NCBI GenBank assembly: GCA_025558095.1
Contig: JAIVFI010000015.1
Location: 248,001 to 312,000, forward strand
Reading direction: 5' to 3'
From: Hyaloraphidium curvatum
Taxonomy: Eukaryota > Monoblepharomycota > Hyaloraphidiomycetes > Hyaloraphidiales > Hyaloraphidiaceae
Length of the DNA: 64,000 bases
The notes under the pieces were generated by a model. That model searched no databases. It saw only the letters and a program-made list of their open reading frames with translations, and had not been told where the DNA came from. Position 1 is the stretch's first letter, and each line of letters begins with the position of its first letter. Of the stretch, positions 6,800-17,311 are shown one piece after another. Both the position numbers and the translations under genes were made by a program.

Positions 6800-6946
6800 C
6801 ATTCCAGCGAGGCAACACGCCTTCGGATTGGCTCGACTATTCCTTCACCAATCCCCTTGACGCCTACACATCGATCTCGTCGTCCGTCACCAGGCTCATT
6901 GCCTTAAGCCGCTCCACGGACCCAGAGATGGCACAAGGTTCTCGCG
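6797..6946 (-). pseudogene. Broken copy of the 3' end of the SNAP-25/Sec9-type SNARE gene
   Basis: On the minus strand this stretch encodes AISGSVERLKAMSLVTDDEI followed by D, V and a stop. It matches AISGSVARLKAMSLVMNDEI in the second SNARE motif of the gene at 16357-17311. The copy continues into sequence beyond that gene's stop (AAATAGCATTCC, GGCAACACG), with internal deletions of roughly 57 and 23 bases that remove the rest of the SNARE motif. Upstream of AISGS the similarity stops. Same strand as the source gene, about 9.5 kb away on the other side of the large surface-protein gene. Only last-exon and 3'-flanking sequence is present, so a retrocopy and a DNA duplication cannot be told apart. 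Confidence 0.7.
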
Positions 6947-7614: not shown

Positions 7615-10600
7615 ATGGAGGCGGTCGCTCGCCCGGCGAAACCGCCGGAACGCGCCGCGCCTCACCGCACCGGGCGTCCGCGCCGGACGCCGTCCCTCAT
7701 CGGGGTCGCCGCCCTCCTGCTCCTCCTCTCCGCGACCATCGCGGTCGCCGGCGCTCAGCTCCAGACCTACGATCGCACCCCTGTTGCCCGCTCCTCCTCT
7801 TCATTCGTGCGGGGCGAAACCTGGTAAGCACGCTCGGTTCCCTGTGGCGTCACATCTGACTCGCCGCGGCCAGCTGCGCCGGGTGCTCGTACGACACAGG
7901 ATGCTGTTGCCCCAGGGTATATAAAATGCAACGTACCAAGACTGTCACTTCCACCTCTGTCACGACCCACCGGCGCACGCGTACCCATGTGAGAAAAGTC
8001 ACCACCATCGTCACCGTGACTGCGCGGCGCTTGTGGGGCCGCAGCGCACCAGTGGTCGTGCGCGAGACCAGAAGCTGGCCGGTCCCTCGAGAGGATGCCG
8101 GCAGGAACGCCACCGTTCCCCGACGGGTCGCCAGATCACAGCCCGAGCCATACACGCCCGACGAAGAACCCATCCGAGATCCCATCCAGACCTCGCACCA
8201 CCTCTTTGCCCGCCACCTCTGCCCTGTATGCCCCGCCGGGGTCGTGCCCGCCCGATCCGGGGCAGGAGGCAGCCCCTGCTGCCCGCGCACGACGATCTGG
8301 AGGACCTCGACCGCGGTCCGCAGGCGGACGACGACCGTATACACCACCAGGACGCGCAGAGTGACCACCACGAGCACTTTCACGAGCACAGTCGGGGCAG
8401 TGGGTTGCCGTTTCCGCGGGTGCCTCCGCTCGTGCCTAACGCGATCCCGGAAAGAAAAACGCGGTGCAGGGACAGGCGAGAGCAGTCCCTAGAAACGTTG
8501 TTGTGCACTGATCTGATTGATCCCTCGTCTCCACAGATCTGGTATGATGACGACAATGACGGCCTCTTCGACCCCACGCACGACCGCCCGATCGCCGGAC
8601 AGATCGTCTACGTCCTGCAGGTCGACGACGTCACCGGAAGCACTGTCATCGTCGCAACCGGGGTCACGGATGGCAACGGGCACTACGACATCGATGCGCC
8701 CCAGCTGCCCCCCAGGGTGCGCTGCCGCATCACGCTCAACGACCCGGCCAACAACCCTGTGGGGAACCCCATGGTGGGTGGCGATGCTGCGATGCTTCTT
8801 CTGCCTTGCTGATCTGATCTGGATCAAGACCAATTCCTCGGGCAGCTTCAACAATCTGGTCCCAATCCCGCCGTCAGCACAGCCTCCGCAGGTACGTTCC
8901 CCCGCGCGCACAGACGCGTCGTCTGACTGGTAATCCGCCACAGCTCACCGTCAGAAGTTTCGTCGATGCTTGTGCCGCGCGCAGGAGGGCGAGTGGCGCC
9001 GGAACCGTCACCATCGCGGGCGACGGCGCGCGCGCCCTCGCGACGGTCGTGCTCTCCTCGTCGGGCGCCAAAATCGCCGAAACGACCTCTGATGCTGGCG
9101 GATCGTGGAGATTTGTCATTTCCACGTCGAGCCTCCCCGGAGTGGGCGGCCAGACGCCGTTTGAAGTGCACCAGCTGGACCCGCACGGCCTGCCTTCACA
9201 ACCGGTGGCGGCCGGGTGAGTTCCGGGCGCGATTCCGGGGCGCTGCGACCTCTGCTGACGTGCGTTTCAGTGTCGCGACTTGCCCCGTGCGGACCACGAC
9301 GGGATCGGCCACGCGCACGCCGACGCCCGTGCCCGGAGGGAACGTTGGCGGCCGCGTTTACGTCGAGGAGACCGAAAAGCCGGGCGTACCCGGCGTCACC
9401 ATCCAAATAACTGGAATCGCTGCCAACGGAACCACCGTCAGCGTGACGACAATCACCGTGACGGATGGGAACTACACCTTCCTCAATCTGCCGCCCGGCA
9501 CGTACGCCATCACGGAGCTCGTGCCCAGTGGTTACATGCCTTCGCCGAACCACCCGGCGATCGTCATCGATCCGATCATCGTCACTATTGGTGGATCTTT
9601 AGGCGGAAACGACTTTGTTCTCGTGCGGGCGAGCACGACGTCGGCTAGCTCGGTGAGGGGATTGTTTGGGAGCGCGGAAACGGGCGCTGATTGGTCTTCA
9701 GACCGTCCTCTTGACGTCGACGGCCGCGCCGACCACGACAAGCCTGCCCTTGGGAGCCATCTCCGGCCGCGTCTTCGTCGACACGACAGGCCAGCCCGGG
9801 GTCGCCGGCGTCACCATCCAGCTCACGGGGACGGCGTCGAACGGCAGCGCCATCAGCTTGGCGACGGTCACCTTGGCGGACGGCAGCTACGCCTTCCCGG
9901 ACCTGCCCGACGGCACCTACACGGTCACCGAGATCGTACCGGACGGCTACTCGCCGTCGTCCAACTTCCCCAACAGCGTCATCACGCCCGTCGTTATCGC
10001 GGCTGGTGCATCGTCTGGCGGAAACGACTTCGGCCTCGTGCAAACCAGCAGCACTACGTACGCTACCTCGGTGAGCAGATTGACGGGAAGCGCGGGAACC
10101 TGGCGCTGAATTGTCCTGCAGACCGTTCTCTTGACCTCGACTGCCGCGCCGACGACGACGAGCCTTCCCGGAGGAACCATCTCCGGCCGCGTGTTCGTCG
10201 ACACGACAGGCCAGCCCGGGGTCGCCGGCGTCACCATCCAGCTCACGGGGACGGCGTCGAACGGCAGCGCCATCAGCTTGGCGACGGTCACCTTGGCGGA
10301 CGGCAGCTACGCCTTCCCGGACCTGCCCGACGGCACCTACACGGTCACCGAGATCGTACCGGACGGCTACTCGCCGTCGTCCAACTTCCCCAACAGCGTC
10401 ATCACGCCCGTCGTTATCGCGGCTGGTGCATCGTCTGGCGGAAACGACTTCGGCCTCGTGCAAACCAGCAGCACTACGTACGCTACCTCGGTGAGCAGAT
10501 TGACGGGAAGCGCGGGAACCTGGCGCTGAATTGTCCTGCAGACCGTTCTCTTGACCTCGACTGCCGCGCCGACGACGACGAGCCTTCCCGGAGGAACCAT

Positions 10601-13600
10601 CTCCGGCCGCGTGTTCGTCGACACGACAGGCCAGCCCGGGGTCGCCGGCGTCACCATCCAGCTCACGGGGACGGCGTCGAACGGCAGCGCCATCAGCTTG
10701 GCGACGGTCACCTTGGCGGACGGCAGCTACGCCTTCCCGGACCTGCCCGACGGCACCTACACGGTCACCGAGATCGTACCGGACGGCTACTCGCCGTCGT
10801 CCAACTTCCCCAACAGCGTCATCACGCCCGTCGTTATCGCGGCTGGTGCATCGTCTGGCGGAAACGACTTCGGCCTCGTGCAAACCAGCAGCACTACGTA
10901 CGCTACCTCGGTGAGCAGATTGACGGGAAGCGCGGGAACCTGGCGCTGAATTGTCCTGCAGACCGTTCTCTTGACCTCGACTGCCGCGCCGACGACGACG
11001 AGCCTTCCCGGAGGAACCATCTCCGGCCGCGTGTTCGTCGACACGACAGGCCAGCCCGGGGTCGCCGGCGTCACCATCCAGCTCACGGGGACGGCGTCGA
11101 ACGGCAGCGCCATCAGCTTGGCGACGGTCACCTTGGCGGACGGCAGCTACGCCTTCCCGGACCTGCCCGACGGCACCTACACGGTCACCGAGATCGTACC
11201 GGACGGCTACTCGCCGTCGTCCAACTTCCCCAACACCGTCATCACGCCCGTCGTTATCGCGGCTGGTGCATCGTCTGGCGGAAACGACTTCGGCCTCGTG
11301 CAAACCAGCAGCACTACGTATGCTACCTCGGTGAGCAGATTGACGGGAAGCGCGGGAACCTGGCGCTGAATTGTCCTGCAGACCGTTCTCTTGACCTCGA
11401 CTGCCGCGCCGACGACGACGAGCCTTCCCGGAGGAACCATCTCCGGCCGCGTGTTCGTCGACACGACAGGCCAGCCCGGGGTCGCCGGCGTCACCATCCA
11501 GCTCACGGGGACGGCGTCGAACGGCAGCGCCATCAGCTTGGCGACGGTCACCTTGGCGGACGGCAGCTACGCCTTCCCGGACCTGCCCGACGGCACCTAC
11601 ACGGTCACCGAGATCGTACCGGACGGCTACTCGCCGTCGTCCAACTTCCCCAACAGCGTCATCACGCCCGTCGTTATCGCGGCTGGTGCATCGTCTGGCG
11701 GAAACGACTTCGGCCTCGTGCAAACCAGCAGCACTACGTACGCTACCTCGGTGAGCAGATTGACGGGAAGCGCGGGAACCTGGCGCTGAATTGTCCTGCA
11801 GACCGTTCTCTTGACCTCGACTGCCGCGCCGACGACGACGAGCCTTCCCGGAGGAACCATCTCCGGCCGCGTGTTCGTCGACACGACAGGCCAGCCCGGG
11901 GTCGCCGGCGTCACCATCCAGCTCACGGGGACGGCGTCGAACGGCAGCGCCATCAGCTTGGCGACGGTCACCTTGGCGGACGGCAGCTACGCCTTCCCGG
12001 ACCTGCCCGACGGCACCTACACGGTCACCGAGATCGTACCGGACGGCTACTCGCCGTCGTCCAACTTCCCCAACAGCGTCATCACGCCCGTCGTTATCGC
12101 GGCTGGTGCATCGTCTGGCGGAAACGACTTCGGCCTCGTGCAAACCAGCAGCACTACGTACGCTACCTCGGTGAGCAGATTGACGGGAAGCGCGGGAACC
12201 TGGCGCTGAATTGTCCTGCAGACCGTTCTGTTGACCTCGACTGCCGCGCCGACGACGACGAGCCTTCCCGGAGGAACCATCTCCGGCCGCGTGTTCGTCG
12301 ACACGACAGGCCAGCCCGGGGTCGCCGGCGTCACCATCCAGCTCACGGGGACGGCGTCGAACGGCAGCGCCATCAGCTTGGCGACGGTCACCTTGGCGGA
12401 CGGCAGCTACGCCTTCCCGGACCTGCCCGACGGCACCTACACGGTCACCGAGATCGTACCGGACGGCTACTCGCCGTCGTCCAACTTCCCCAACACCGTC
12501 ATCACGCCCATCGTTATCGCGGCTGGTGCATCGTCTGGCGGAAACGACTTCGGCCTCGTGCAAACCAGCAGCACTACGTACGCTACCTCGGTGAGCAGAT
12601 TGACGGGAAGCGCGGGAACCTGGCGCTGAATTGTCCTGCAGACCGTTCTCTTGACCTCGACTGCCGCGCCGACGACGACGAGCCTACCCGGAGGAACCAT
12701 CTCCGGCCGCGTGTTCGTTGACACGACAGGCCAGCCCGGGGTCGCCGGCGTCACCATCCAGCTCACGGGGACGGCGTCGAACGGCAGCGCCATCAGCTTG
12801 GCGACGGTCACCTTGGCGGACGGCAGCTACGCCTTCCCGGACCTGCCCGACGGCACCTACACGGTCACCGAGATCGTACCGGACGGCTACTCGCCGTCGT
12901 CCAACTTCCCCAACAGCGTCATCACGCCCGTCGTTATCGCGGCTGGTGCATCGTCTGGCGGAAACGACTTCGGCCTCGTGCAAACCAGCAGCACTACGTA
13001 CGCTACCTCGGTGAGCAGATTGACGGGAAGCGCGGGAACCTGGCGCTGAATTGTCCTGCAGACCGTTCTCTTGACCTCGACTGCCGCGCCGACGACGACG
13101 AGCCTTCCCGGAGGAACCATCTCCGGCCGCGTGTTCGTCGACACGACAGGCCAGCCCGGGGTCGCCGGCGTCACCATCCAGCTCACGGGGACGGCGTCGA
13201 ACGGCAGCGCCATCAGCTTGGCGACGGTCACCTTGGCGGACGGCAGCTACGCCTTCCCGGACCTGCCCGACGGCACCTACACGGTCACCGAGATCGTACC
13301 GGACGGCTACTCGCCCTCGGCAAACTACCCTGAAACCATTATCACCCTGATCACCATCCCCGCGGGTGGCACTTCAAGCGGGAACGACTTTGGCCTCGCG
13401 GCGCCGAGCACTTCTTCGAGCACCGTCGCGGCGGCGCCTGCGACCTCCGAAACCAAGAGCCTGACAGCAACGACCTCGATGTCGCACAGCTTGACAGCCA
13501 CAGCTTCGGGGACGCTTAGCAGCAGCTCTTTGACGGCTACAGAGTCGCAGACGCCCAGCACCAGCTCTTTGACGGCAACCGCTTCGGCGACGCCCAGCAG

Positions 13601-15995
13601 CAGCTCGTTGACCGCTACGAAGTCGCGAACGCCAACTAGCAGCTCTTTGACTGCTACGAAGTCGCAGACGCCAAGCACCAGCTCTTTGACGGCAACCGCT
13701 TCGGCGACGCCCAGCAGCAGCTCGTTGACGGCCACGAAGTCGCGAACGCCAACTAGCAGCTCTTTGACTGCTACGAAGTCGCAGACGCCAAGCACCAGCT
13801 CTTTGACGGCAACCGCTTCGGCGACGCCCAGCAGCAGCTCGTTGACGGCCACGAAGTCGCAGACGCGAAGTACTACATTGCTGACGACCACTTTCAAGAC
13901 CGCTACATCCACCACCAAAGTTGGTCTACCTGGCGCAGCTCTGTCCAGGCACCTCTGATTGTTGCTTTGTAGGTCTGCAGCACTGTCACCCCGTCTCCCA
14001 GCCCGTCTGGGGGCAGCAATGCTTGGAGTGGCACGGTAACCACTCAGGCACCTGTTTCGAGCCCTGGCGTCTCTTTCCAAGCGAATACCGGCGGTGATGG
14101 ATGGGATGTCGCCGTTCACAATGATGGCAAGAGGGTGTTCAACGTTTTCCACGTCAGTATGGCGCTCCGTGCTCTGAATCCAGCTGACGCATTGCACTAC
14201 GCCGCACAGCACCATGTTGGCATGACGGTGGATTGCCACGTAAGTGCAGCGTTCTTGGCGACACTCTTGCGTCGGTTGCCGTCCTCTCACCTTTATATTT
14301 CCCTCTAGATCAAGAACACCGGCAATCCATGCAACGTCAACTATCCGTGGACCGGAACGGCAGACGTGCTGACGTCGAACCAACCCTACGTTTTGTTCGA
14401 CCCCTTGAACCCGAACCTAATGTACATTTGGGTGATCCTTTCGGAGCAGTCGGGAGCCGCGTCGGCGGCGGGGATCGTGGGGATCAATGTGGGCGGCGCC
14501 ACTGGAGCGGTACCAAGCATCTCGGGGATGTATCGCATGTCGCGCGATGGCTACGGGCCGACAAGTGGCGGCTTCCCCACAGGCAACCGTGGACCCACGG
14601 GAGGGGTCGTAATTGGCACGTGGCCGCTGAATTCTCTCTTGCGAATCCTAATGCCATTCCACAGGCACGCAGTTCTGGGCCATCAACCACGCGATTAACT
14701 TTGGTCTGGATGATGAAAGGAACGCGATGCTATGCTTCGACACTTATACCAAGGCGGCATGTGCTGGGCCTGCTTGGTACCCCGTTAAGTACCCCGCCAA
14801 CTGGGTGCATACCGGCGGTGTCATGGCGTGGCTCTTGGAAGCGGCGGGACGGATCTACGTCTACAATCCGGGGGAGATTTCCGGTTCATGGGCGAACGTG
14901 ATCACCTGCTTCGATCCCAACTCGCCTGGCACCAGTTACGAGTGCGGTGGAAATTGGCCGGTCACGGTCCCGATTGAGTAGGTTCATGCTTCCTCTTACG
15001 ACGCGGGGTTCTCAATGGCCTCGCAGTACCACAACCAACCTCGCCACGAAGTCGGCTTCGCTGTTCCAGTACCGGCCCGCTGCGGGAGGTCCCCAAGGCG
15101 TCTGCGTGGGCGGTGCTAAGCAGAAGGACGTTTCGGGAACAGCTGGCCGAATGCACTGTTGGCATTTTGATGGCACCAGCATTGGATGTGGGTTTCAACT
15201 GGAACTCGTGCTCTTCAGTTTGGCTGACACCTTCATTTGGAAGATCTCGCCGACGTCTTTGGCCTCATGAAAGAGAACGCAATCAGCGGCACCAACTTCG
15301 GCAACACCAAGTACATTCTTCCCGCCGACGATGGGGTGACATGCATCGACATGAACACCAATGCTTACTGCACCGGCTACCCGATCGCGGGTTTGGCGCC
15401 AGACAAGTCAACTTATGCGATCCGCGCGGAATCGCCGACGTGTTTCTGGGCCAATTCAGACAGCGGCGATATCTGGTCGGCCTCATGCCCGTGTTTGTTT
15501 TTCTTCGCGGTGCTTACCGCCGTCGCCTCCTGCTAGGAACTTCAATCCTGTTTCCAGGACCGCGGGCTGTGGGACAAAGTTGTACACCTACGGTGCGTTG
15601 GGTTGCGTGGGGCCAGCTGGCACGACAACCATTGATTGTCTGCTCGCCTACCTCCAGACACCTTCCACCCCGCCGATCTCCAGAAGCCCTGGTGCACGCA
15701 GAACATCACGAGCTGGAAATCTTGGACGCTTATCAAGGTCGGCTCCAGCCTGACCTACACCAGCGCGAACCTCGTCTTCTATGACAAGAACCTGGTCGCG
15801 ATCCCGCACCTTTCCTTCACCATAACGCCGTCGTCGCAAACGGCCGACTTCGGGACCTACCTGCCCGGGTCGCTGATCCCCGACGGCACGCTGCGCTTCG
15901 AAATCAAGTTCACCGGTCTGACCGGGTGCAACGGGTGTGCTATCCAGTATAAGGTGGCTTATGACTCGGAGCCACAAGTGTGCTGCGACCCGTAG
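7615..15995 (+). CDS. Giant putative cell-surface protein with a tandem array of Cna-B/SdrD-B-like domains
   Basis: My model has 22 exons and 2390 aa: 7615-7823, 7874-8399, 8537-8773, 8829-8891, 8944-9215, 9271-9652, 9702-10070, then 369-nt exons starting 10122, 10542, 10962, 11382, 11802, 12222 and 12642, then 13062-13919, 13973-14239, 14309-14608, 14673-14977, 15027-15187, 15244-15490, 15537-15592 and 15658-15995. Order of parts: signal or anchor segment (IGVAALLLLLSATIAVAGAQ), Cys-rich and Thr/Arg-rich region (CAGCSYDTGCCC; TTTVYTTRTRRVTTTSTFTS), an SdrD-B-like domain (IWYDDDNDGLFDPTHDRPIA), one diverged and nine near-identical Cna-B-like domains (ISGRVFVDTTGQPGVAGVTI ... DGTYTVTEIVPDGYSPSS), a Ser/Thr stalk of 13-aa repeats, then a Cys-rich C-terminal region with CFD and CIDMNTNAYC-type motifs ending CNGC...CCDP. 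Known family role: Cna-B domains form rigid stalks in bacterial adhesins. Inferred role: adhesin or wall protein. Joins at 8399/8537 and 15187/15244 are the least certain. No C-terminal membrane anchor was seen. Confidence 0.75.
9702..13430 (+). repeat. Tandem 420-bp exon-plus-intron repeat array (nine domain copies)
   Basis: Units repeat with an exact 420-bp period. Each holds a 369-nt exon (123 codons, phase 0 at both ends) and a 51-nt intron starting GTGAGCAG and ending CCTGCAG; the eight internal introns start at 10071, 10491, 10911, 11331, 11751, 12171, 12591 and 13011. Most units are identical by eye, with scattered single-base changes (AGC to ACC in the NSV codon near 11235 and 12495; G to A near 12511; C to G near 12230). 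The first copy (9702) differs in its first ~80 bp and the ninth diverges after about 13315. Such identity of introns as well as exons indicates recent unequal exchange or gene conversion. Confidence 0.95.
13478..13880 (+). repeat. 39-nt Ser/Thr-coding minisatellite with 117-nt higher-order period
   Basis: Inside the exon that begins at 13062, units of 13 codons such as SLTATKSQTPSTS, SLTATASATPSSS and SLTATKSRTPTSS follow each other; the three types recur as a 39-residue (117-nt) block. Ser/Thr density predicts an O-glycosylated, extended stalk between the Cna-B-like array and the Cys-rich C-terminal region. Repeats of this kind commonly vary in number. Confidence 0.9.
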
Positions 15996-16356: not shown

Positions 16357-17311
16357 CTACTTCTTCACCGGCCCGCCGATGATCCGCTCGAGCTTCACCT
16401 TGCTCGTGTCCACGCTCGACTTCACCGCATCCGCCTTGACGCCCATCCGCTCCAGCCGCTCGTTCTGGGAGTCGATCTCGTCGTTCATCACCAGGCTCAT
16501 CGCTTTCAGCCGCGCCACGGAGCCCGAGATGGCGCTCAAGTTCTGGTCGATCTCCTGGTTGATGGCCTTGTCGTCCATCTCGTAGGCGCTCTTTTTCCCC
16601 GTGGTCGCAGTCTTCAGGCGCGCGGCCTGGTTGTCCGCGCCCTGGTAGTGGTCCGTCATCGTGCCCATGGTGCCTTTGCGGCGGGCCTCCTGCTCCATGC
16701 GGTCCATCTCCTTCTTCGTCATGCCCGGAGTACCCGCGGCCGCCGAGAAGCCGGGCTTGTCCGTGGTGGTCACCACGGGCACGAAGAAGGCGGCCTGCAG
16801 CCGCGTCAGGTCGTTTGTGCGGGCCTCGGAGACCTTTGCGTGGCCGGCGGCGTCGTCCAGCCGGCGCTCGGTGCGGGCGAGTTGCTCTGAGTGGACGGGT
16901 GAGGGGCGGCCCGTGCCTCGTCCGGGCAATGTCCCCACCTCCCTGCGTCGAAAGCTTGCCGAGGTTTCCCGCGGCGAGCATCTCCGCCTCGGCGATGCGG
17001 TTCACGGAGCGGCGCGTCGACTCGAGGCTCGCCTGGTCGAGCCCGCGGCGCTCGGCGACCAGCGCATCGTACTGCTCCTGCTGCGACGCGTACGTGCGCG
17101 GCGCGGGCAGCGACGCCGCCGAACCCGCCGTCGGCGCGCGGTCGGGCGACTTGGCGGACGAGGCTGACGACGGTGCGGACTTCGACGGCGCCTTGGCCGT
17201 CGAGATGGGCTCGGGCGCCGGCGCCGGCTTGCTCGGCTTGAAGAGCTCCTCCCGCTGCGCCGCCTCGGCCTCCTTGTTGGGCTTTTTCTTGCCGAACCCG
17301 AGGAAGGACAT
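16357..17311 (-). CDS. SNAP-25/Sec9-type t-SNARE (Qbc)
   Basis: Two exons (17311-16939 and 16886-16357; 52-nt intron) give 300 aa. SNAP-25/Sec9 proteins supply two helices to the SNARE bundle that fuses secretory vesicles with the plasma membrane. The N-terminus (MSFLGFGKKKPNKEAEAAQR) and residues 20-75 are charged and Pro/Ala-rich. The first SNARE motif spans the exon join (SLESTRRSVNRIAEAEMLAA ... QLARTERRLDDA); the second ends the protein (DQNLSAISGSVARLKAMSLV and VKSSVDTSKVKLERII). No membrane anchor and no palmitoylated Cys cluster was seen in the linker, like fungal Sec9 rather than animal SNAP-25. A broken copy of the last-exon end sits at 6797-6946. A Sec2-type exchange factor of the same exocytic route is at 34054. 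Confidence 0.88.

Follow-up and report, generated by a model that had tools for sequence, protein, structure and literature searches.

How does a fungal nuclear gene come to encode a row of bacterial-adhesin-type domains, each separated from the next by the same short intron? We addressed this question at a locus of Hyaloraphidium curvatum, within a window of 64,000 nucleotides (the whole stretch of DNA analysed). The reading we favour, with a probability of about 78%, is of an exported, modular surface protein whose domain array would have grown by unequal exchange between two diverged ancestral units, A and Z. The array, its chimeric ends, the coding constraint on its exons, its domain family and the paralogous arrays are features of the sequence itself. 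The host genome, 31.9 Mb in size, is fungal; its description as GC-rich and fungus-like, made from the letters alone, agrees with 96 Zn_clus and five Chitin_synth_1 matches and with a GC content of 59–72% in the window. A radial-spoke (flagellum) search of the genome gave no match, nor did its control.

Gene model and predicted protein

The array lies inside a gene model that was built by hand as a spliced open frame, with the C44 paralog as guide. Several intron borders outside the array (for example, 14609–14672 and 15476–15536) rest on this single paralog. The features outside the array are as follows.

7615..15995, + strand: whole predicted gene, 22 exons, 21 GT-AG introns, 2385 aa
7615..7823, + strand: exon 1, basic start followed by a hydrophobic stretch, LIGVAALLLLLSATIAVAG (Kyte-Doolittle 2.47)
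7874..8399, + strand: exon 2, N-terminal region rich in Cys and in Arg/Thr, CCAGCSYDTGCCCP, with its counterpart conserved in C44
8537..8773, + strand: exon 3, degenerate segment resembling SdrD_B (the frame containing exon 3 matches SdrD_B with E 0.0039)
9271..9652, + strand: exon 6, diverged SdrD_B unit 0, immediately upstream of the array and its preceding intron (SdrD_B match at residues 469–529 of the N-terminal protein)
9653..9701, + strand: pre-array intron, 49 nt (not divisible by 3), a diverged homologue of the array introns
13431..13919, + strand: Ser/Thr-rich stalk, sharing an exon with unit 9 and containing tandem repeats of 39 bp and 117 bp (13511–13870)
13973..15995, + strand: exons 16–22, C-terminal region of 552 aa, from a family that recurs elsewhere in the genome

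Read from its N terminus, the protein would begin with a signal peptide or anchor and a Cys-rich part, continue through successive SdrD_B domains into a Ser/Thr stalk, and end in a C-terminal domain whose family is uncharacterised. The hydrophobic stretch of exon 1 is a candidate signal peptide or signal anchor, and the stalk is probably O-glycosylated. A profile search of the N-terminal protein found a second SdrD_B stretch besides the unit 0 match; unit 0, a tenth and diverged unit, aligns with an array unit at 50% amino acid identity. The C-terminal region had no Pfam family above cut-off (DUF2950 matched below threshold, E 0.0043) and no match in the PDB. The C terminus reads IKFTGLTGCNGCAIQYKVAYDSEPQVCCDP and lacks the LPXTG motif, hydrophobic stretch and basic tail of Gram-positive sortase-anchored adhesins; on the predicted last exon, it also has no GPI-like signal or hydrophobic end. 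Overall, the protein would be long, modular and exported, and its display at the cell surface is most likely.

A nine-unit array with identical introns

Tandem Repeats Finder reported a period of 420, 8.8 copies, 98% matches, 0% indels and a score of 7125 at 9632–13330. Direct comparison placed the unit starts at 9702, 10122, 10542, 10962, 11382, 11802, 12222, 12642, and 13062. Both analyses bear out the exact 420-bp period and the nine units at 9702–13430 of the original prediction. The array comprises the following.

9702..10070, + strand: unit 1 (exon 7), 369 nt, differing from the internal units at 11 positions, none of them beyond its first 72 nt
10071..10121, + strand: first array intron, 51 nt, GTGAG...CTGAA...CAG, with an in-frame TGA
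10122..13010, + strand: units 2–8 (exons 8–14) and their introns, with 0–3 differences per 369 nt from the commonest unit
13062..13430, + strand: unit 9, with 45 differences, all within its last 115 nt

Identical copies of the first intron begin at 10491, 10911, 11331, 11751, 12171, 12591, and 13011 (the last spanning 13011–13061). Eight of the units are 369-nt exons as had been proposed for all nine; the ninth instead makes up the opening 369 nt of a longer, 858-nt exon (13062–13919). Likewise, the introns, previously described as near-identical, are identical letter for letter in all eight copies, and it is the pre-array intron that is a diverged, 49-nt homologue. The claim that exon and intron were amplified together and the units homogenised holds. 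These data support an array that is recent and of a kind whose length normally varies. With 369-nt units and phase-0 introns, gain or loss of a unit would be frame-neutral, leaving array length free to change, and judged from this one genome such change is likely ongoing.

Domain identity and predicted fold

An array unit matches the SdrD_B profile (PF17210) with an E value of 3.2e-10 and a score of 40.6 bits (cut-off 29.7), far beyond chance. The structure prediction proposed for one 123-residue unit was carried out with AlphaFold2 and gave a transthyretin-like beta-sandwich of eight strand elements (pLDDT 86.2), from an alignment that included bacterial SdrD_B relatives and is thus biased toward the SdrD_B fold. 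The closest fold matches were SdrD (10ps, Z 13.3), UafA, and CnaB2, with Z at most 13.3. By profile and predicted fold, the unit is therefore an SdrD_B-type, transthyretin-like beta-sandwich. Since its 123 residues include no Lys (and no Cys), an isopeptide bond, which in Cna-B-type domains joins Lys to Asn with the help of a catalytic Glu or Asp, is impossible. The earlier label of Cna-B-like thus stands as regards a bacterial-adhesin-type, transthyretin-like domain, but not as a strict Cna-B domain. For one SdrD_B domain, a Lys-Glu-Asn triad has been predicted (PMC12617251).

The acidic loop DxNxxGxxDxGE after the first strand is absent from the array units, unit 0, and the C44 units, which have VDTTGQPG or similar, whereas the C2, C7, and C4 paralogs retain it (DANLNGVDDGE or similar). 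In SdrD, this loop binds calcium. As it is common but not universal in the SdrD_B family, the profile assignment stands.

The 51-nt segments as introns

Each 51-nt segment contains an in-frame TGA, and retention of the first would stop the protein at residue 698 of 2385. That these segments are instead translated linkers, with TGA read as Trp or read through and the array forming one continuous coding repeat as in bacteria, would fit a length divisible by 3 and the fact that, besides the single TGA, each 420-bp period is open (139-aa stop-to-stop frames). We consider this highly improbable. The homologous introns measure 49 nt before the array, 51 nt within it and 49 nt in C44, so translation would shift the frame, which indicates that they are non-coding. 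What these homologues have kept in common includes the splice-site and branch-like motifs, and the remainder of the gene requires introns of the same kind. Read-through of the TGA was rejected on the frame-breaking homologues and the kept splice motifs.

Most of the 21 introns have a CTGAY- or CTRAN-like motif 10–20 nt before the 3′ end, as does an intron in a chitin synthase gene of this fungus. At this branch-like motif, the array introns read CTGAA in place of CTGAY, which might weaken their splicing. From the sequence, we infer that every array intron is spliced, with correct pairing of donor and acceptor. The flanking exons evolve as coding DNA, as shown by a dN/dS of ~0.2–0.35 between internal array units and C44 units.

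Origin of the array

The end units reveal how the array could have formed. All 11 differences of unit 1 fall in its first 72 nt, and all 45 differences of unit 9 in its last 115 nt; were differences evenly spread, the chances would be 1.6e-8 and 1.6e-23, respectively. In its tail, unit 9 shares 82% identity with C44 unit 3 and 51% with C44 units 1 and 2, while internal unit tails are 78% identical to C44 units 1 and 2 and 60% to unit 3. The internal units are chimeras of the two end units. Confinement of the differences to the start of unit 1 and the end of unit 9 points to unequal exchange that broke within the exons. The ancestors would have been two diverged units, A and Z, with an intron between them. 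Crossover, or slippage and template switching, would have left the 5′ end of A in unit 1, the 3′ end of Z in unit 9, and Z-then-A chimeras in the units between. With breakpoints within exons, the short intron would have been copied passively and is best regarded as a passenger of the amplification. Because both parental end units are still readable, one genome is enough to reconstruct the exchange, and the locus shows a domain array shortly after amplification.

The original prediction took the repeat unit to be one exon plus its intron. The intron was indeed amplified alongside; this unit is one choice of register, though, as the end-unit differences locate the exchange inside exons. Nor does it extend to other genes of the genome, where the unit has an intron inside the domain or none at all. 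A second gene (C2) has three intron-bearing arrays of the SdrD_B family; intron-bearing arrays have periods of 781 bp (four copies with 0 differences), 432 bp (×4), and 465 bp (×2.9). A third gene (C7) has an intronless array of 372 bp × 10.

Classical exon shuffling, in which recombination in introns copied a symmetric phase-0 exon module and placement of introns at domain borders was selected for, would account for array introns that lie between domains and are all in phase 0. It is rather unlikely, as the junctions, judged by the differences at either end of the array, fall within exons, and amplification does not track intron positions: the C2 unit has a phase-1 intron inside the domain and the C7 unit has none.

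Near-identical repeats are difficult to assemble. In this assembly, a stretch of the C7 array gene is present a second time on contig C54, differing by one mismatch and a 30-nt repeat indel over 6 kb, so not all repeat lengths are certain, and the unit count of the array may be off by some. An assembly artefact or a wrong count is nevertheless very unlikely as the explanation: short reads collapse such repeats rather than expand them, contigs reach 1.3 Mb, and the unit-specific differences are ordered, at the 5′ end of unit 1, the 3′ end of unit 9 and as single nucleotides in units 4, 7, and 8.

Bacterial relatives

A donor search of bacterial and archaeal genomes found 22 loci scattered across many phyla. 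Plasmids gave one weak match (Eleftheria, 40%), phages gave two, both in Staphylococcus records, and viral contigs gave none. The bacterial relatives hold 4–13 units within a single open frame, as would be expected had the array been taken ready-made from a bacterium and its introns inserted afterwards. We regard this as extremely improbable. Internal array units are 98–100% identical to one another but at most 43% identical to aligned bacterial units, and in a tree they cluster with the C44 fungal units (support 99). Eight identical introns are also incompatible with eight separate insertions. The array is local and young, even if the domain as such may have come from bacteria. The tree, with few columns and long branches, resolves no donor, and the search proposed for the closest donor yielded no close bacterial donor that could be named.

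Comparison with known systems

The original prediction considered such an array not described. Its mode of growth has precedents in LPA KIV-2, Tetrahymena LRR genes, and CNN00420; what is new is the domain, the host, and the recurrence. The human LPA KIV-2 unit has two exons and occurs in 1 to >40 copies (PMC6314250). Like the fungal array, this kringle IV-2 region of apolipoprotein(a) is an extracellular domain amplified in tandem as exon-plus-intron units (PMC6314250), but with a 5.6-kb unit, a 4-kb intron, another domain and an animal host; its copy-number polymorphism is demonstrated, whereas that of the fungal array would follow from its structure. Tetrahymena has ~1,500 genes with 90-bp LRR exons in one species, in arrays of equal exons with phase-2 introns ascribed to unequal crossing over and exon shuffling (PMC6564038). 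These differ in being from a ciliate, in the leucine-rich repeat, and in intron phase (0 here). Closest in host is Cryptococcus CNN00420, also fungal, whose intron-containing repeats, in the excerpted account, consist of exon ends plus a whole, identical intron, vary in number among strains and have splicing backed by ESTs (PMC2395259). That excerpt gives a ~107-nt repeat and names no domain, whereas here each unit is a whole beta-sandwich and the genome has three further intron-bearing arrays. The present array has a whole intron per unit, near-identical copies, and symmetric 369-nt phase-0 units. Growth by exon plus intron is thus known for such stalks, and the SdrD_B case in a fungus is apparently undescribed.

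With SdrD_B of staphylococcal SdrD, SdrC, and relatives, the array shares the profile match, the predicted fold and a tandem row beside a low-complexity stalk, but it belongs to an intron-bearing fungal nuclear gene without an LPXTG-like C terminus. A 2025 survey of isopeptide-bonded domains, some SdrD_B included, took its matches in eukaryotes to be probable false positives or contaminants (PMC12617251). In this fungus, SdrD_B domains, though devoid of the isopeptide Lys, are firmly part of the nuclear genome and occur in genes that have introns and several paralogs.

FLO genes encode long extracellular proteins with a Ser/Thr-rich stalk and unstable intragenic tandem repeats. The predicted protein resembles such adhesins in length, stalk, and repeats, and differs in having no GPI-like C terminus, a folded bacterial-type domain as its repeat, and a spliced gene. 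Array length would determine how long the rigid portion of the stalk is, for which we infer a spacer role; if array length differs among isolates, the locus would be a domain-level counterpart of the yeast tandem-repeat adhesins. Finally, eight consecutive identical introns offer a natural test of pairing by the spliceosome. As all are in phase 0, any donor could join any later acceptor with the frame kept. It is conceivable, though on balance unlikely, that exon skipping lets one allele yield a ladder of stalk lengths and intron retention adds short secreted forms, over and above any length change in the DNA, and that several such loci make stalk length a fast-changing trait. If true, this would be a fungal surface trait built from a bacterial-type domain.

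A probably spliced array of SdrD_B units in the window gene

The array was analyzed using TRF, which reported a period of 420 with 98% matches and no indels across 9632-13330, and was then split at splice sites into nine 369-nt units, the first at 9702 and then one every 420 nt. The original observation of a tandem array with a 420-bp period was borne out with small corrections: there are nine 369-nt units but not nine 369-nt exons, as unit 9 forms only the start of an 858-nt exon, the rest of which encodes a Ser/Thr-rich stalk, and the eight between-unit introns, first described as near-identical, are fully identical 51-mers. Units 2-8 each differ from the commonest unit by 0-3 nt. The intron preceding unit 1 is a 49-nt diverged homologue of the array introns, and 5' of it lies a tenth, diverged unit (exon 9271-9652).

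Four lines of evidence, all drawn from genomic sequence, support reading the 51-nt segments as introns. The lengths of the homologous introns (49, 51, and 49 nt) rule out in-frame translation of all of them. Parts conserved in all of them include the donor GTGAG, a CTGA motif, and a CAG acceptor. Every 51-mer holds an in-frame TGA, and retaining the first intron would end the protein at residue 698. Similar introns (about 50 nt, CTGAY) occur elsewhere in the window gene, and a chitin synthase gene has them too, with the caution that the branch-like motif of the array introns is CTGAA.

The unit matches PF17210 SdrD_B at 40.6 bits (cut-off 29.7), and its nearest solved sequence is SdrD of Staphylococcus aureus (E 3.7e-12). 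AlphaFold2 predicts a beta-sandwich (pLDDT 86), for which the best folds include SdrD, UafA, and CnaB2, though this prediction is not independent because the input alignment contained bacterial relatives. With zero Lys and zero Cys, the unit can form neither an isopeptide bond nor a disulfide. An acidic loop retained in SdrD_B units on contigs C2, C7, and C4 is absent from the array unit. Comparison against the units of a paralog on contig C44 gave dN/dS of about 0.2-0.35, indicating protein-level constraint.

Related genes and growth of the array

Searching the genome assembly with the unit and with PF17210 identified further SdrD_B genes:

C44:64001-74000, close paralog sharing both terminal parts (N and C) of the window gene but carrying only three SdrD_B units
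C2:1103001-1118000, - strand, SdrD_B gene with three intron-bearing arrays (432 bp x4; 781 bp x6; 465 bp x2.9, the last in the stalk)
C7:14001-24000, ten 372-bp units, intronless, within one 1578-aa open frame

Two of the three C44 units lie within one long exon with Ser/Thr linkers, and this paralog resembles a pre-expansion state. Eleven positions distinguish unit 1 from the internal units, every one within its first 72 nt, and 45 distinguish unit 9, every one within its last 115 nt; were differences evenly spread, such clustering would have a chance of about 1.6e-8 and 1.6e-23, respectively. The unit 9 tail matches C44 unit 3 at 82% and C44 units 1 and 2 at 51%, whereas internal-unit tails match units 1 and 2 at 78% and unit 3 at 60%. 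Together, the end-confined differences and tail similarities argue for unequal exchange between two diverged ancestral units, A (5' end of unit 1) and Z (3' end of unit 9), that would have been separated by an intron. All later copies would then take their 5' side from Z and their 3' side from A, with junctions inside exons, within the stretch common to all nine units. Crossover, slippage, or template switching would each produce this pattern. A difference at position 275 is common to units 4, 7, and 9; duplication of a three-unit block (2-4 to 5-7) would explain its sharing by units 4 and 7, on thin evidence.

In the 432-bp and 781-bp arrays of C2, a phase-1 intron interrupts the domain within the Glu codon of the DDGE loop, and four consecutive copies of the 781-bp array show zero differences; introns of the 465-bp array were called from three-frame translation only. 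The in-domain site is also present on C34 and in the first C7 unit, and so predates the arrays; it is absent from the C7 array units. As units have been amplified with an intron between domains, inside the domain, or with none, the intron is best seen as carried along rather than as the cause. Separately, the 3' part of the C7 array gene recurs at C54:1-6000, on a contig of 20 kb; over 6 kb the two sequences differ by 1 mismatch and by about 30 nt in repeat length, so that C54 represents a second haplotype, a copy, or an assembly overlap. Several open frames in the assembly also carry two closely spaced Zn_clus matches (e.g., C35:28125-28361 and C26:525547-525858), a pairing that is, to our knowledge, unusual for fungal regulators.

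Bacterial relatives span many phyla; they are about 36-53% identical to the fungal query and form intronless arrays that reach 13 units. In the tree, the units of the window array cluster with those of C44 (support 99), and no donor was resolved by this tree.

Intron-including coding repeats are known from LPA KIV-2 (PMC6314250), Tetrahymena LRR genes (PMC6564038), and, in fungi, Cryptococcus CNN00420, which shows strain polymorphism and has EST support (PMC2395259). The window array is a true, well-formed example of this already known mode of gene growth; what is unusual is the domain, the host, and the very clear traces of how growth happened. The literature searched contained no description of SdrD_B arrays in fungi, which is weak evidence of novelty. 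An SdrD_B domain is listed within a diatom chitinase set (PMC12028343), and a survey of isopeptide-bonded domains judged its own eukaryotic hits likely false positives or contamination (PMC12617251).

The predicted protein

With the C44 paralog as guide, we wrote a complete spliced frame for the window gene of 22 exons (7615-15995; 2385 aa), with all introns GT-AG. From N- to C-terminus, the protein comprises:

basic stretch, then a strongly hydrophobic 19-mer
Cys-rich and Arg/Thr-rich parts
SdrD_B units, ten clear and one degenerate
tail-and-stalk segment, 174 residues, 103 of them Ser/Thr
C-terminal region, 552 residues

The C-terminal region matched no Pfam family above cut-off, and the protein end is neither GPI-like nor LPXTG-like. 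Relatives of this region form a multi-copy family (C18, C15:672314, C9, C30, and C46) with the motif GGDGWD...FHEDG...DCH, NAMLCFD; they often follow Ser/Thr-rich stretches, as in the relatives read (C18, C30, and C46). The predicted protein reads as exported and modular, and is probably displayed at the surface.

Intron 15476-15536 is missing from the C44 paralog, and the converse holds near the C44 stop codon (exon ends inferred), which would suggest that one paralog or the other recently gained or lost introns. Finally, a 62-nt fragment (6871-6932 vs 16472-16533) is 87% identical to part of a downstream - strand gene, which by eye we take to be SNAP-25-like, and lies on the opposite side of the array gene from it in the same orientation.
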